Shown piece by piece: positions 24,007 through 29,451 of a DNA stretch of 36,353 nt. The notes below the pieces were generated by a model that made no database searches, was not told the origin of the DNA, and worked only from the letters and a program-made list of their open reading frames with translations. The stretch is taken from positions 1-36,353 of the forward strand of contig JADLDL010000300.1 of the NCBI GenBank assembly GCA_020846655.1, in the 5' to 3' direction. The translations under genes were made by a program, and so were the position numbers. Position 1 is the stretch's first letter; the number at the start of each line of letters is the position of its first letter. The DNA is from Saprospiraceae bacterium (GTDB taxonomy: Bacteria; Bacteroidota; Bacteroidia; Chitinophagales; Saprospiraceae).

Positions 24007-24414
24007 TTACTGCTGTGGCATACCGGCCGGGTCCATCCAGGTAACTTCCCAGATATGTCCGTCGAGGTCGTTGAAGGCGCGGTGGTACATAAAGCCAAGG
24101 TCCTCGGCAGGGCGGGCTTCGGAGCCGCCGGCGGCGATAGCCTGCTGCACCATTTCATCCACAGCGTCGCGGGAATCGGTCGAGAGGGCGATCAGCACCT
24201 CGGTGGTTTGGGTGGCGTCGGCAATGGCTTTGGGGGTAAAACCTTTAAAAAACGGCTCCGACAACAGCATGGCAAACGCCAGCTCGTTGATGAGCATACA
24301 GGTCGCTTTTTCATCCGAAAACTGGGGGTTGAACGAAAAACCGAGGGCCGTGAAAAAGGCATTGGTTTGGGCGAGGTTCTTGACCGGAAGGTTGATAAAA
24401 ACTGGCTTGGACAT
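24007..24414 (-). CDS. VOC (glyoxalase/bleomycin resistance) family protein
   Basis: This 135-residue single VOC domain reads VFINLPVKNLAQTNAFFTALGFSFNP at its N-terminus and DLDGHIWEVTWMDP at its C-terminus. Beta-alpha-beta-beta-beta repeats are as expected. Some metal-ligand positions of true glyoxalases are unclear, so enzymatic activity cannot be assigned. A paralogue lies directly upstream on the same strand, 57 bases away; both share FxQxGFSxNPQ and TTEVLxxxS patterns, so this is a tandem duplication. Confidence 0.85.
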   Translation of the reverse strand: MSKPVFINLPVKNLAQTNAFFTALGFSFNPQFSDEKATCMLINELAFAMLLSEPFFKGFTPKAIADATQTTEVLIALSTDSRDAVDEMVQQAIAAGGSEARPAEDLGFMYHRAFNDLDGHIWEVTWMDPAGMPQQ

Positions 24415-24471: not shown

Positions 24472-24885
24472 CTATCGGGGCGGCAACTTGCTGTGGTCCA
24501 TGTACAACACGTTCCAACGGTGGCCATCGGGGTCGGCAAAGCCGCAGCCGTACATCCAGCCCTGGGATTCGGCCGGCTCGGCATACACGGTCCCGCCCGC
24601 CTGCACGGCTTTGGCAGCCAGCGCATCCACTTCTTCACGGGATGCTGCACTGATCGACAGCAGCACTTCGGTAGTGTGTGGCGCCGGCAATTCATTTTGC
24701 GTAAACCGCTGGAAAACCGGCGCAGCAAACAGCATCACCACCACGTTTTTTTCGCCGACGAGCAGGCTCGCCGATTGTTCACTGTCGCCGTATTGCGGGT
24801 TCAGCGAAAAGCCTAGTTGTATAAAAAATGCCTTTGCCCGCAGCACATCCTGCACCGGCAGGTTGATCCAAATTTCTTTTGTCAT
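24472..24885 (-). CDS. VOC (glyoxalase/bleomycin resistance) family protein, tandem paralogue
   Basis: This protein has 137 residues. WINLPVQDVLRAKAFFIQLG starts the VOC fold and DPDGHRWNVLYMD ends it, parallel to the neighbouring gene. It lies first in the pair and has a TAnnTTTG box upstream, so the two VOC genes are probably one transcript. Substrate unknown. Confidence 0.85.
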   Translation of the reverse strand: MTKEIWINLPVQDVLRAKAFFIQLGFSLNPQYGDSEQSASLLVGEKNVVVMLFAAPVFQRFTQNELPAPHTTEVLLSISAASREEVDALAAKAVQAGGTVYAEPAESQGWMYGCGFADPDGHRWNVLYMDHSKLPPR

Positions 24886-25081: not shown

Positions 25082-27349
25082 CTACGGCTGGGCAGGCTTG
25101 GAGATTTTCAAGTTACAGCCCACATAAAATTCCCGCCCCCGGGTAGGGCCCCAGGCAAAAGCGGGATCGAAGCCGCGCGCAAAAGGCTGCTCCCAGCCCA
25201 GGATCGGGCGGGCCTGGCGGACGTCGAACACATTTTCACAGCCCACAAAACAGTCGATGCGTTTCCAGGCGCGCCGGATTTGCAGCCCCAGGAGGGTGTA
25301 GGGGCTCGAATAGCCGGGCCGTTGCAGGGCCTCCGGGTTGCGGCGGGTATCGGGCAAGCGTTGGCGGCCATACCAATGTGTGTTGAGGTCAAATTGCCAG
25401 CGCTCGCCGGGCGTCCGGAAGGTAGCGACGCCCAGCACTTTGTGGCGCGCGTTGAAGGGCAGGAGTACTTTTTTGCCGCCAGTTTGCCGGAACACGTCGA
25501 GGAAGGTATAGGCGGCGCGCAGTTCCAGGCGCCGGTTCCAGGCCGCGCTGCCCTCCAGTTGCAGGCCGTTGCTGATGGAAGTGCCGGTGAAATTGGCCAG
25601 GATCGCCAGGTTCGGGTCGGTATCGTAGTCCGGGAAAAACTGGTTCTGGAACCGGGTATGGTACGCATCGGCGGTAGCCGTGAGGCGCAGGGCGCCGAGG
25701 GTGAAGCGCCGTGTGGCATTGATTCCGGCGTTGAGGGCGCGTTCGGGGCGCAGGGTTTCGGCAAACACCAGATCGCGGGTGCCGGCCAGCAGGGCGGTGT
25801 TTTCGGGAAACAAGTTGACGCTGCGCCAGCCGGTGCCGATGTTGGCCCGCAGGTCAAGTTCGGGCGAGGGATTGAAGCGCAACATCGTGCGCGGGGTGTA
25901 GTGCCACCCGAAAGCCGGGTGCCGGTCGGCCCGCAGGCCGGCGATCCAGACCCAGCGGTCGTCGCGGAAATGAAACACATTTTCGACAAAAGCGCCGGCG
26001 ATGTTTTCTTCGCGGCGGTACTGGCCGGCAAAGGTGCGGCGGAGGGTGTCGGCGGCGGCGAAGGCGATGGTTTCATCCAGCCAGAAATGCCGGAAACTCA
26101 AGCCGGTTTTCAGTTCGTGGGCTTGTTGGGGCCCCCAAAACTGCTCGAACTGGAGGTTGGCGTAGGCGTGGTGCTGGGTGGCGTCGTAGCGGGTCAGGCC
26201 GAACCAGGCCTGTTGGTCTTGTGCAACAAAGGAGGCCAGGAGCGATATTTTGCGGTTTTCGTCGAAGCGCCAGCCGGTTTTGGTCAACAGTTCGGGTTGC
26301 CAGAAGCGCAGGGTTTGACCGTAGGCGCGGGTGCTGCCCTCGTCGGTTTGCGGGTTAAAATCCACTTGTCCGCCGATGCGCCGTTCCTGCACAAGGCGCG
26401 CGGCGAGGAACGCGCTGAGCCCCTTTTCATTTTCTTTGCGGTAGCGCCATTTGTTGTACAAGGAGTAGCGGGTGAGCCGGGGCAGGTCGAGGAAGGTGTC
26501 GCCGTCGCGGTCCCATTTGCCGCCCGGCTGGGAAGTATGCAAGGCGAGGTAATTGGTCCAGCGCGTTTTGTTGGTGGCAATGGCCATATTGAGGTGTTTT
26601 TCACCAAAACTATTGAGCAACACATCGGCCGTGAGCGGCTCGGCTAGGCCGCCTTCGCGGGGAAAAATTGTGATTTGACCGACCATGCCTTCGTAGCCCT
26701 GCAACACCGAATTGGCGCCTTTCACCACCCAAATATTTTCCAGCATGCTGCCAGGGATCGTGCCGGTGCCGTAGGTGTAGGTGAGGCCCTGGATGGTGGG
26801 CAGCCCGTCGACGAGCACCTGGTTGTACACCCCGCTGAGGCCCAGGATGCGCAGTTCTTTGGCGTTGGTGAGGATGTTGGTAGTGGTGGGTTGCACGGTA
26901 GCCTGGGTTTCGAAGCAACCGGCGAGGTCGCAACAGGCGGCTTTGCGGAGTTCGGCGCGGTTGATGATTTCGGTTTTGACGGGCTGGAGCACCGAAATAT
27001 AGGCCCCCGTGGCGTCGTCGCGGACCATGACTTCTTTCAGGGTGACAGTAGCCGAGAGCGGAACGGTCCAGTAACTGTGCAAGTCGTCGATCAGGAAGGT
27101 GTCGCGCAGGGCGCTGTAGATGGCGGCGAGCCGCAGGGGTTTCTGGGTGGTGTCGGCTGGAAACGGCAGGGCAAATTCGCCCTTGTCGTCGGTACGGGCG
27201 CCGGTACCGGTACCCGCCCAGGCGACTACAGCGCCGGGCAAGGCGGTGCCCTGCATATCGGTCACCTGGCCGTAGAGGTATTGGGCGGAAATGGTTTTTG
27301 GGGAAAAGAAGAGCAGTAAGAAAAACGGAGGGAGGTATTTGTACAACAT
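25082..27349 (-). CDS. TonB-dependent outer-membrane receptor with Cys-Cys plug
   Basis: This protein has 755 residues. After a signal peptide (about 1-22, ending SAQ) comes a carboxypeptidase-regulatory-like domain (YLYGQVTDMQGTALPGAVV, about 24-105). The plug (about 119-230) contains LRKAACCDLAGCFET (Cys139, 140 and 145) and LVDGLPTIQG. A 22-strand-type beta barrel fills the rest. A Cys-Cys plug with a following FET motif marks a Bacteroidota receptor subfamily I recall but whose ligand I do not know. The family imports siderophores, metals or glycans using TonB. The gene follows the TIR-TonB gene on the same strand after a 94-base gap holding its own predicted promoter. Confidence 0.92.
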   Translation of the reverse strand: MLYKYLPPFFLLLFFSPKTISAQYLYGQVTDMQGTALPGAVVAWAGTGTGARTDDKGEFALPFPADTTQKPLRLAAIYSALRDTFLIDDLHSYWTVPLSATVTLKEVMVRDDATGAYISVLQPVKTEIINRAELRKAACCDLAGCFETQATVQPTTTNILTNAKELRILGLSGVYNQVLVDGLPTIQGLTYTYGTGTIPGSMLENIWVVKGANSVLQGYEGMVGQITIFPREGGLAEPLTADVLLNSFGEKHLNMAIATNKTRWTNYLALHTSQPGGKWDRDGDTFLDLPRLTRYSLYNKWRYRKENEKGLSAFLAARLVQERRIGGQVDFNPQTDEGSTRAYGQTLRFWQPELLTKTGWRFDENRKISLLASFVAQDQQAWFGLTRYDATQHHAYANLQFEQFWGPQQAHELKTGLSFRHFWLDETIAFAAADTLRRTFAGQYRREENIAGAFVENVFHFRDDRWVWIAGLRADRHPAFGWHYTPRTMLRFNPSPELDLRANIGTGWRSVNLFPENTALLAGTRDLVFAETLRPERALNAGINATRRFTLGALRLTATADAYHTRFQNQFFPDYDTDPNLAILANFTGTSISNGLQLEGSAAWNRRLELRAAYTFLDVFRQTGGKKVLLPFNARHKVLGVATFRTPGERWQFDLNTHWYGRQRLPDTRRNPEALQRPGYSSPYTLLGLQIRRAWKRIDCFVGCENVFDVRQARPILGWEQPFARGFDPAFAWGPTRGREFYVGCNLKISKPAQP

Positions 27350-27370: not shown

Positions 27371-27401
27371 CAAAATTACGATGAAGAATAAGGCCGCCAA
27401 G
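27371..27401 (-). promoter_or_regulatory. Predicted promoter of the TonB-dependent receptor gene
   Basis: On the minus strand taattttg (complement of 27371-27378) fits TAnnTTTG, and a cttg near-match to the -33 box lies 19 bases upstream at 27398-27401. It places a start site about 15 bases before the receptor ATG, so the receptor can be expressed separately from the TIR gene. Confidence 0.5.
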
Positions 27402-27443: not shown

Positions 27444-29309
27444 CTATTTCACCGTGAACTTGAAGGTGATGGTGCCGGTTTGATCGGCGGCGGCGGATGG
27501 CGCGAAGCGGAATTGCCGGGCCCAGGTTACGGCCATTTTGCGCAGTTCGCTGTCGTTCGTGGTTGAACCGGCTTGGGTGTAGTCGGCTACAGTTACTACC
27601 CCTTCTTCATTTACGGCAATCCGCACGACGATTATGCCCCCTTTCTGGGTGTTATCCACCATAGTAGGCCGGTTCTGGATTTTGCGGCCGCCGAGGCCGC
27701 CGCCGATGGATATACCGACACCATCGCCACCACCGGCTCCACCGCCGGAGCCGGTACTTGTGCCAAAGGGGTTGTCGCCGGGGACGCCCTGGTTTCCGGG
27801 CTTGCCGGTATTTCCCTGGCCGGTTCTGGCTGCACCGCTACCGAAGGAACTTCCAAATGATCCTTTTATCTTATCGCGTCTGGCCTGTTCCTGTTTGGCG
27901 GCCTCCTCCGCTGCCTGGCGTTGGCGGTCTTGTTCGGCCAAACGGTCGGCTTCCTGTTTGCGGACGCGCTCCTGCTCGGCTTGTTGTTTCTTTTTGGCTT
28001 CCTCCTTTGCTTTTCGGATCGCGGCGGTTTCCGGATCAGTGTCTGTTATTTTGGCAAGGGAATCCCGGGCAGGGGCCGCGCCATCTGCAGACAGGTCTTT
28101 GGGGGTGGCGGCTGCGGGTTTGCGGGGAGAAGGAGCGGCCACTTGCCGGGGCTGAGGCTGGAGCGCCGCTACGGGTTGGCTGTCGCGGGCGGTGGAATCC
28201 TGCAGCACAAAGTCTGCTTGCGCGCTGGTATCCTGCGTTTGCGAAAAGCCCGGAATAAAAAACCAAGCCAACAGGCTGGAAACGACCATACCCAGGGGCA
28301 CAAAAACCATGAGTTGGCGTTTTTTCTGGCGCAATTGTTTTATGTTCAATAAGGCGTCTTCCACATAGGGATTGTTGGGGTAATCCTGTAAGAATTGCAG
28401 GTAAGCCGAGGTTTTGTTCTGCCGTTCCACTTTTTTCCAGGCGTTGAGTACGTCCTGTTCGTATTGCCGGGCAGCGGCGGCTTGCTGTTCCTGTTTGGCC
28501 TGGGCTTCCTGTTGCTGGCGGATCCAGGCTTCCTGCACGCGTTGTGCCTCTTGCGCCCGTAGTTCATCCCGTCTTTTCCGATCCCGTTCTTCTGCTTCCC
28601 GCAGCAGGCGTTCCTGCCGCAAGGTGTCCATGTTTTTGCGCGCCACGGAGCTGAAGAGACTATCCCCGTGCTCGTGTAAAAAATCGGCCCAAGCCTGTTC
28701 AGTATTCAGGTCCTGTGCCCGTTGCCAGGAGGCTGCGCGTTCTCTTTCTAGCTGCTCCTGCCGTATTTTTTGCTCTTTCTCGCGTTGTATCCGGGCCTCT
28801 TCTGCGGCTATGGCTTGCAAGCGCTTTTGTTCTATTTGTCTGCGGGATTCCTGGATGTCGCGGGCGGCCGATTTGATGCCTTCCACCACCAGTTTGTACG
28901 GCATATCGGTACTAGGCCATTGGTTGGAGCAAATCGGGAAATCGCCGGAGGGCAAGGCCTGGATTTTGCTGATGGGATGCGCCTCCCAGTCGCAGTCGCG
29001 GGCGATGACTGGCAACAGCCGGCATTTGCCTTGCTCGTGCCGGCGCATGGCAGCGGGCAATTCGTGTTGTTGAATGTAGTGAGAAGCAAAAAAATCGGCG
29101 CTGAGCAGAAGGATCAGCAGCTCCGCTTGTGCCAGTTGGGCTGAAATAGCGCGATCCCAGTCCTCGCCGGGTATAATTTCATGATCGCCCCACAAATCCA
29201 GGATGCCGTTGCTCACCTGAACGGCCAGGTGTCTGCGAAGTTTATCCCGCACGTCGTGGTCTTCACGGGCGTACATGATAAACGTTTTCAGCGGTATTTC
29301 TTTTGCCAT
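27444..29309 (-). CDS. TIR domain - coiled coil - transmembrane - TonB-like C-terminal fusion protein
   Basis: This protein has 621 residues from the ATG at 29309; the frame extends 33 residues upstream, but a -7 box lies inside that part. Residues 8-145 are a bacterial TIR domain: KTFIMYAREDHDVRDKL, ILDLWGDHEIIPGEDWD, and ADFFASHYIQQHEL with Glu83 at the NADase catalytic position. Residues 150-330 are a charged Gln/Glu/Arg coiled coil with two AYxxFLxxYP-type repeats (about 206-220 and 302-320). A single transmembrane helix (332-353) follows a KKRQ positive patch, so the N-terminus is cytoplasmic. A Pro/Ala-rich then coiled periplasmic linker (about 355-480) and a Gly-rich stretch lead to a TonB-like domain (545-621: IVVRIAVNEEGVVTVADYTQ, GSTTND, TGTITFKF). 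The helix lacks the TonB SHLS-type His, so ExbB/ExbD coupling is uncertain. The fusion is unknown to me. Confidence 0.9.
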   Translation of the reverse strand: MAKEIPLKTFIMYAREDHDVRDKLRRHLAVQVSNGILDLWGDHEIIPGEDWDRAISAQLAQAELLILLLSADFFASHYIQQHELPAAMRRHEQGKCRLLPVIARDCDWEAHPISKIQALPSGDFPICSNQWPSTDMPYKLVVEGIKSAARDIQESRRQIEQKRLQAIAAEEARIQREKEQKIRQEQLERERAASWQRAQDLNTEQAWADFLHEHGDSLFSSVARKNMDTLRQERLLREAEERDRKRRDELRAQEAQRVQEAWIRQQQEAQAKQEQQAAAARQYEQDVLNAWKKVERQNKTSAYLQFLQDYPNNPYVEDALLNIKQLRQKKRQLMVFVPLGMVVSSLLAWFFIPGFSQTQDTSAQADFVLQDSTARDSQPVAALQPQPRQVAAPSPRKPAAATPKDLSADGAAPARDSLAKITDTDPETAAIRKAKEEAKKKQQAEQERVRKQEADRLAEQDRQRQAAEEAAKQEQARRDKIKGSFGSSFGSGAARTGQGNTGKPGNQGVPGDNPFGTSTGSGGGAGGGDGVGISIGGGLGGRKIQNRPTMVDNTQKGGIIVVRIAVNEEGVVTVADYTQAGSTTNDSELRKMAVTWARQFRFAPSAAADQTGTITFKFTVK

Positions 29310-29327: not shown

Positions 29328-29335
29328 CAAATGTA
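29328..29335 (-). promoter_or_regulatory. -7 box of the TIR-TonB gene
   Basis: The complement reads tacatttg, matching TAnnTTTG, 18 bases before the chosen ATG at 29309. It supports that start over the longer frame. No clear -33 box is seen. Confidence 0.45.
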
Positions 29336-29399: not shown

Positions 29400-29451
29400 A
29401 TTGGGCATTGAACCTATTCAACTATTAAAATTGAAATGTTCAATGCCCAAT
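29400..29451. repeat. Foldback of cattg words
   Basis: attgggcattgaac (29400-29413) returns exactly as gttcaatgcccaat (29438-29451), a 14-bp stem, with a smaller ttcaa/ttgaa pair inside the loop. It lies between the TIR gene and the 3' end of the haloperoxidase-like gene. Confidence 0.75.

Follow-up and report, generated by a model that had tools for sequence, protein, structure and literature searches.

A TIR–transmembrane–TonB fusion protein of a Saprospiraceae bacterium as a candidate envelope sensor

TIR-based defence is known for sensing triggers inside the cell, and TonB-like proteins are linked to nutrient receptors. Thoeris, for example, can be triggered by phage capsids, according to the available part of PMC12578639. 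EAD, TIR, and FGE domains are described as parts of conflict systems in the accessible portions of PMC7159879 (2020) and PMC8195603 (2021). On the transport side, a Ser-x3-His motif in the transmembrane (TM) helix links TonB and TolA to the motors that drive them, Ser16 and His20 of TonB contacting ExbB and the His being essential, as stated in the part of PMC12215075 that was accessible. No description of a TIR-TonB fusion was found in the openly licensed PubMed Central literature, so this absence constitutes no proof; the preliminary description of the present DNA likewise knew of none. TonB is not mentioned in the available main text of PMC7159879, PMC8195603, PMC10907252, PMC7075850, or PMC11237479. 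The gene described here lies in a window of 36,353 nucleotides, which is the whole stretch of DNA that was analysed.

Domain order and parentage of the protein

The gene occupies positions 27444..29309 on the minus strand, as a single frame encoding 621 residues; an alternative upstream ATG at 29408 is possible and would give a product of 654 residues. The earlier reading of 27444-29309 is thereby corrected for strand, the plus strand containing stops in frame 1. The architecture claimed at that stage, a TIR domain joined through a TM helix to a TonB-like domain, was confirmed by profile, homology, and fold, and the domains follow one another as TIR, coil, TM helix, long linker, and TonB C-terminal domain.

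The identity of the N-terminal domain (28959..29282, minus strand; residues 10-117, with Glu83 kept) as TIR is certain, from both PF13676 and fold. Its Pfam score of 54.6 bits exceeds the cut-off of 28 (PF13676, E 1.9e-14), and the earlier assignment of residues 1-150 to TIR thus passed its profile check. The domain also matches the PADLOC ThsB model at 4e-31, and every one of the 12 entries that Foldseek matched (E<=0.001) to an AlphaFold2 model built from three sequences (pLDDT 74.3) contains TIR. Glu83, which we take to be the catalytic Glu of TIR NADases, is aligned with a Glu in 3h16, 9mud, and 7uxr, and the same position holds a Glu in 34 of the 40 TIR domains aligned from the genus. We infer that the TIR domain of the fusion would cleave NAD+.

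The TIR domain is followed by a charged, cytoplasmic coil with FLxxYP-type repeats (28320..28862, minus strand; residues about 150-330), recognized from the translation and from the alignment to a paralogue on contig C114 of the same genome, and by a single TM helix assigned by hydropathy (28251..28316, minus strand; residues about 332-353), which contains no His and no [ST]xxxH motif. Residues 1-354, TM helix included, align with this TIR-TM paralogue at 31% identity over 374 columns (E 1.3e-41). The paralogue's own tail looked TPR-like, yet it receives no name from Pfam, and the TPR assignment was dropped. Among the TIR proteins of the genus that were scanned, the tails named by Pfam are FGE-sulfatase or TPR, and a TM helix follows the TIR domain, by a simple hydropathy rule, in 14 distinct genes among 45 rows of a non-random sample. 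TIR proteins of this genus therefore carry changeable tails.

In the present protein, the tail comes from TonB. The stretch that derives from tonB of the same genome (27447..28136, minus strand; residues 392-621) comprises part of the linker and the C-terminal domain (27447..27677, minus strand; residues 545-621). Residues 422-621 are 72% identical to residues 126-331 of that TonB over 206 columns (E 2e-79), and the longer alignment, covering residues 392-621, retains 68% identity. The reference protein is encoded in an ExbB-ExbD-TonB operon, on contig C13, its partners being identified by Pfam. The tail is thus more specific than the "TonB-like" domain first proposed, having been copied from this genome's TonB, and the protein keeps a linker of about 190 residues. 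For residues 545-621, homology and fold upheld the TonB assignment, and the curated profile cut-offs were not reached: TIGR01352 gave 20.9 of 27.1 bits, and no PF03544 match was reported at E<=0.1. By a curated profile, the operon TonB itself scored exactly 24.6 of 24.6 bits. The best 22 structural matches of the C-terminal model were all TonB/TolA-type domains. A PDB sequence search gave no match with the C-terminal profile and only weak matches with the whole protein, and a first scan of genome contigs with the full-length sequence turned up no confirmed relative.

Since residues 1-354 match the TIR-TM paralogue and residues 422-621 match the periplasmic part of TonB, each half would lie on its natural side of the membrane. 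The exchange point falls just after the TM helix, and the predicted topology of the fusion follows from its parent proteins. Judged from these alignments, a TIR receptor has exchanged its periplasmic tail for TonB's linker and C-terminal domain.

The TM helix bears on motor coupling. Each of the 23 canonical TonBs examined from the genus, out of 37 canonical-length rows, has the [ST]xxxH motif, and none of seven fusions (not all independent) has it, the TM His being absent from all seven. With a TM helix lacking the residues that couple TonB to ExbB, the fusion is expected to extend to the outer membrane unpowered, as a passive reader and not as a driven TonB. This is suggestive, and loss of the motif alone constitutes no proof of uncoupling, because canonical TonBs of some other genera (L030, L031) also lack the His. 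The fusion gene is not linked to exbB or exbD either, its neighbours being a TonB-dependent receptor gene and, upstream, a gene for a PAP2-family protein.

Relatives, number of origins, and constraint

A profile of the TonB domain gave 55 matches in 38 of the 42 genomes of the genus, of which 37 are canonical-length frames (307-383 aa). TIR fusions are rare, with three matches in as many genomes: the present gene (genome G000) and genes of G204 (JAEUUU010000112) and G216 (JADZFP010000370), two separate submissions in which the fusion and the resident tonB are convergent genes about 150 bp apart. Two further matches are EAD11-TM-TonB_C frames, one in G221, where an FGE-sulfatase domain follows, and one in G214, ended by the contig; another such protein occurs in G306, from another genus (EAD11 1.2e-12). 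These loci are L108:144-2621 (minus strand; the same as L140, JALHMA010000317.1), L107:1-1838 (minus strand), and L188:2885-4339 (minus strand), and together they form a parallel case placing TonB_C in the EAD network. One match, in G202, has an N-terminus without an assigned domain before the TM helix and is cut by the contig end (L113:3-2120, plus strand); its TM helix precedes a divergent TonB_C and a weak thrombospondin type 3 repeat match.

The other 12 matches comprise small frames and frames of other kinds, several of them beginning with a signal-peptide-like stretch. Small frames with little besides TonB_C, at L114:3876-4745, L115:3895-4494, L116:3906-4310, L117:3737-4324, L119:472-915, and L120:1-444, have signal-peptide-like or lipoprotein-like starts and no obvious reach across the envelope. 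On contig C155 of G000 (L055:188-4035), a TIR-TM-TPR protein, a secreted-looking TonB_C protein, and an FGE-sulfatase frame lie on the same strand. Outside the genus, no TIR-TonB fusion occurred among the long frames listed from samples of the order (198 genomes), the family (298, 120, and 398 genomes), and the class (159 genomes); these samples overlap and the candidates per genome were limited, so rare fusions may be missed.

Two separate origins of the TIR fusions are likely, the second event being favoured by the copied length, the junction, and most tree tests. In a 51-row tree, whose bootstrap had not settled, the G204 and G216 fusions group with their own genomes' TonBs (97/84). The G000 fusion neighbours the TonB of G000 (87/90), inside a separate starred group that has ten members (100/99). 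A single origin of the three was weakly rejected on the longer domain (AU p 0.036, 37 rows) and was not rejected on 85 columns (AU p 0.114, 38 rows). Before these tests, 14 and 13 long-branched or secreted forms, respectively, were dropped, the G202 and G306 fusions among them. The best 37-row tree holds no clade of the G000 fusion with the canonical TonB of G000, a grouping which is nevertheless not rejected (p 0.463). The copied TonB length is about 230 residues in G000 and about 105 clearly alike in G204, where a looser alignment to the own TonB extends to 159 codons, and the TM-flanking regions of the fusions gave no match to one another in BLAST.

Between G204 and G216, the TIR domain has a dN/dS of 0.062, the coil and TM helix 0.20, the linker 0.357, and TonB_C 0.139. 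Purifying selection thus acts on both end domains, while the linker drifts. Compared with the canonical TonB_C of their own genomes, these two fused domains are 84% and 83% identical, with dN/dS of 0.09 and 0.08 at dS 1.0-1.25. Constraint is weaker in G000, where dN/dS between the fused copy and the own TonB is 0.29 over 237 codons and 0.47 over the last 85. Of the 118 canonical pairs with usable dS, just one reaches so high a value over the 85-codon domain, and a paralogue is therefore favoured over another species' tonB. Over about 200 codons, linker included, 55 of 171 canonical pairs are as high as the G000 fused copy, as are 7 of 10 pairs at dS 0.5-1.0; as canonical pairs reach the same values, this stretch cannot separate the two cases, and its use as an argument against an assembly join was dropped.

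The preliminary description had allowed that the frame might be an assembly join of two genes. This is unlikely, given that the frame is in frame and open across the join and that two other assemblies have the architecture. Among 23 canonical TonBs, the one nearest to the G000 fused copy is the genome's own. No relative of the downstream receptor gene was found in 65 loci around TonB-type genes (overlapping loci and two EAD fusions included), and an assembly chimera would therefore need two joins. The genome itself, of 6.4 Mb, is in 398 contigs.

Neighbourhood and promoter-like sites

A TonB-dependent receptor gene (25082..27349, minus strand; PF00593 5.9e-28, PF07715 5.6e-8) lies 94 bp downstream. 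An operon representing a conserved partnership was considered and rejected: the receptor has relatives at 60-80% identity in 18 other genomes of the genus, none of the 19 relative loci examined contains a TIR-TonB gene near the receptor relative within flanks of up to about 1.5 kb (the L213 relative being 31% identical), and a promoter-like site precedes the receptor gene. G000 is rich in conflict-type domains (20 TIR_2 and 18 EAD11 matches), alongside 52 Plug matches, a number that makes chance adjacency of the receptor possible.

Promoter-like sites were assigned from what we take to be the Bacteroidota promoter consensus. A possible -7 element, TACATTTG, lies at 29328..29335 (minus strand), upstream of the start at 29309; motifs of this type occur in the window at about chance frequency (18 found against 14.56 expected). 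The candidate promoter of the receptor gene, TTG-N19-TAATTTTG at 27371..27400 (minus strand), is one of two in the window against 0.37 expected, a count of two being reached in 5 of 100 shuffles. Scans for sigma-70 promoters and terminators stayed at chance level.

Besides the fusion, no known defence gene was found among the window proteins scanned (seven by Pfam, three by PADLOC); the remaining window was inspected by eye. ThsA was absent from the proteins scanned, and none of the seven proteins was an EAD or STAND/MoxR/vWA partner. The window also holds tandem glyoxalase/bleomycin-resistance-type proteins (24007-24414 and 24472-24885, minus strand), 43% identical to each other.

Possible function and comparison with known systems

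The best explanation, to which about even confidence is given, is that the protein is a single-pass inner-membrane TIR receptor, whose tail from the genome's own TonB would act as an unpowered sensor of outer-membrane transporters and control the TIR domain. The TonB domain would dock on TonB-dependent receptors as TonB does, and an unpowered tip on a long tether would be a passive reader of the receptor or TonB-box state. A disturbance at the docking site, as when a phage or bacteriocin hijacks the receptor or occupancy becomes abnormal, would change clustering through the TM helix and switch on the TIR enzyme, which would then cut NAD+ or make a signal from it. The purpose would most likely be envelope-level immunity. 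The envelope-to-cytoplasm direction proposed earlier is supported, and the protein may report phage adsorption or colicin attack. A TIR domain wired to a TonB tip would face outward, towards the uptake gates that phages and colicins exploit. Counted in favour of this explanation is the occurrence of TonB_C behind a TM helix on EAD11 proteins as well, a conflict-system family; counted against it are the rarity of TIR fusions, the lack of a defence gene among the scanned window proteins, the weaker constraint in G000, the receptor unlinked in relatives, and the missing His of the L030 and L031 canonical TonBs.

A more novel but rather unlikely reading would make the fusion an integrated decoy, in which parts of the genome's own TonB tip have repeatedly been attached as bait to immune-type proteins (TIR, EAD11). 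If so, an invader that hijacks or blocks TonB at the outer membrane would strike the bait as well, and TIR would fire. Such a bait would be kept like the real TonB, which would account for the strong G204/G216 constraint and for fused copies clustering with the TonBs of their respective genomes. It is also rather unlikely that the protein has no immune role and is a nutrient or envelope-state signalling receptor, reading loaded transporters and adjusting metabolism or expression via a nucleotide signal. The established tie of TonB-like proteins to nutrient receptors, the same-strand receptor gene, and the scanned window proteins devoid of defence genes fit such a role, but the genome's wealth of TIR and EAD11 domains speaks for conflict, and the receptor, with its own promoter-like site, is unlinked in relatives and may be adjacent by chance.

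The TonB-like domain could also be just a periplasmic dimerisation, peptidoglycan, or small-ligand module making no receptor contact, which is equally doubtful. TonB_C does occur untethered by any TM helix, in small frames of secreted or lipoprotein-like type (C155 of G000, G203, G199, and G238), and ahead of an FGE-sulfatase domain in G221, and other TIR proteins of the genus end in FGE or TPR tails; nevertheless, the constraint of G204 and G216 towards canonical TonB_C, at dS over 1, points to the same contact surface, and the fusion protein keeps its long linker. A product devoid of function, whether a chimera that has decayed or arose by accident or a join made in assembly, is very improbable. 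The sporadic distribution, the fragmented assembly, the relaxed constraint in G000, and the unremarkable linker-inclusive dN/dS would suit it, but the architecture recurs in two other assemblies with tonB adjoining, the 85-codon dN/dS is that of a paralogue, the nearest canonical TonB is the genome's own, the join is open and in frame, and a chimera would require two joins.

The fusion shares the C-terminal fold and sequence, the helical and Gly-rich linker, and the single TM helix with Bacteroidota TonB, from which it differs by its N-terminal TIR domain and coils, by a TM helix without [ST]xxxH, and by the lack of exbB/exbD linkage. With the TIR proteins of the genus it has in common the TIR domain, the coil, the repeat, the TM helix (as in the C114 paralogue), and the Glu; beyond the TM helix, the FGE, TPR, or C114-type tail gives way to that of TonB. 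The EAD/TIR/FGE NTP-dependent conflict systems, in the available parts of PMC7159879 and PMC8195603, are alike in their mix-and-match domains, and the same TonB_C is carried by EAD11 proteins, whereas no STAND, MoxR, or vWA partner was found among the window proteins scanned. The TIR domain resembles Thoeris ThsB by its match to the PADLOC model, but the fusion is predicted to span the membrane and to carry a periplasmic domain. The outward-looking topology resembles, by analogy only, that of Toll-like and IL-1 receptors, which, in the accessible part of PMC7075850, likewise combine a cytoplasmic TIR domain, one TM helix, and a sensor outside; in the fusion, the domain order would be reversed and the sensor taken from a transport motor.
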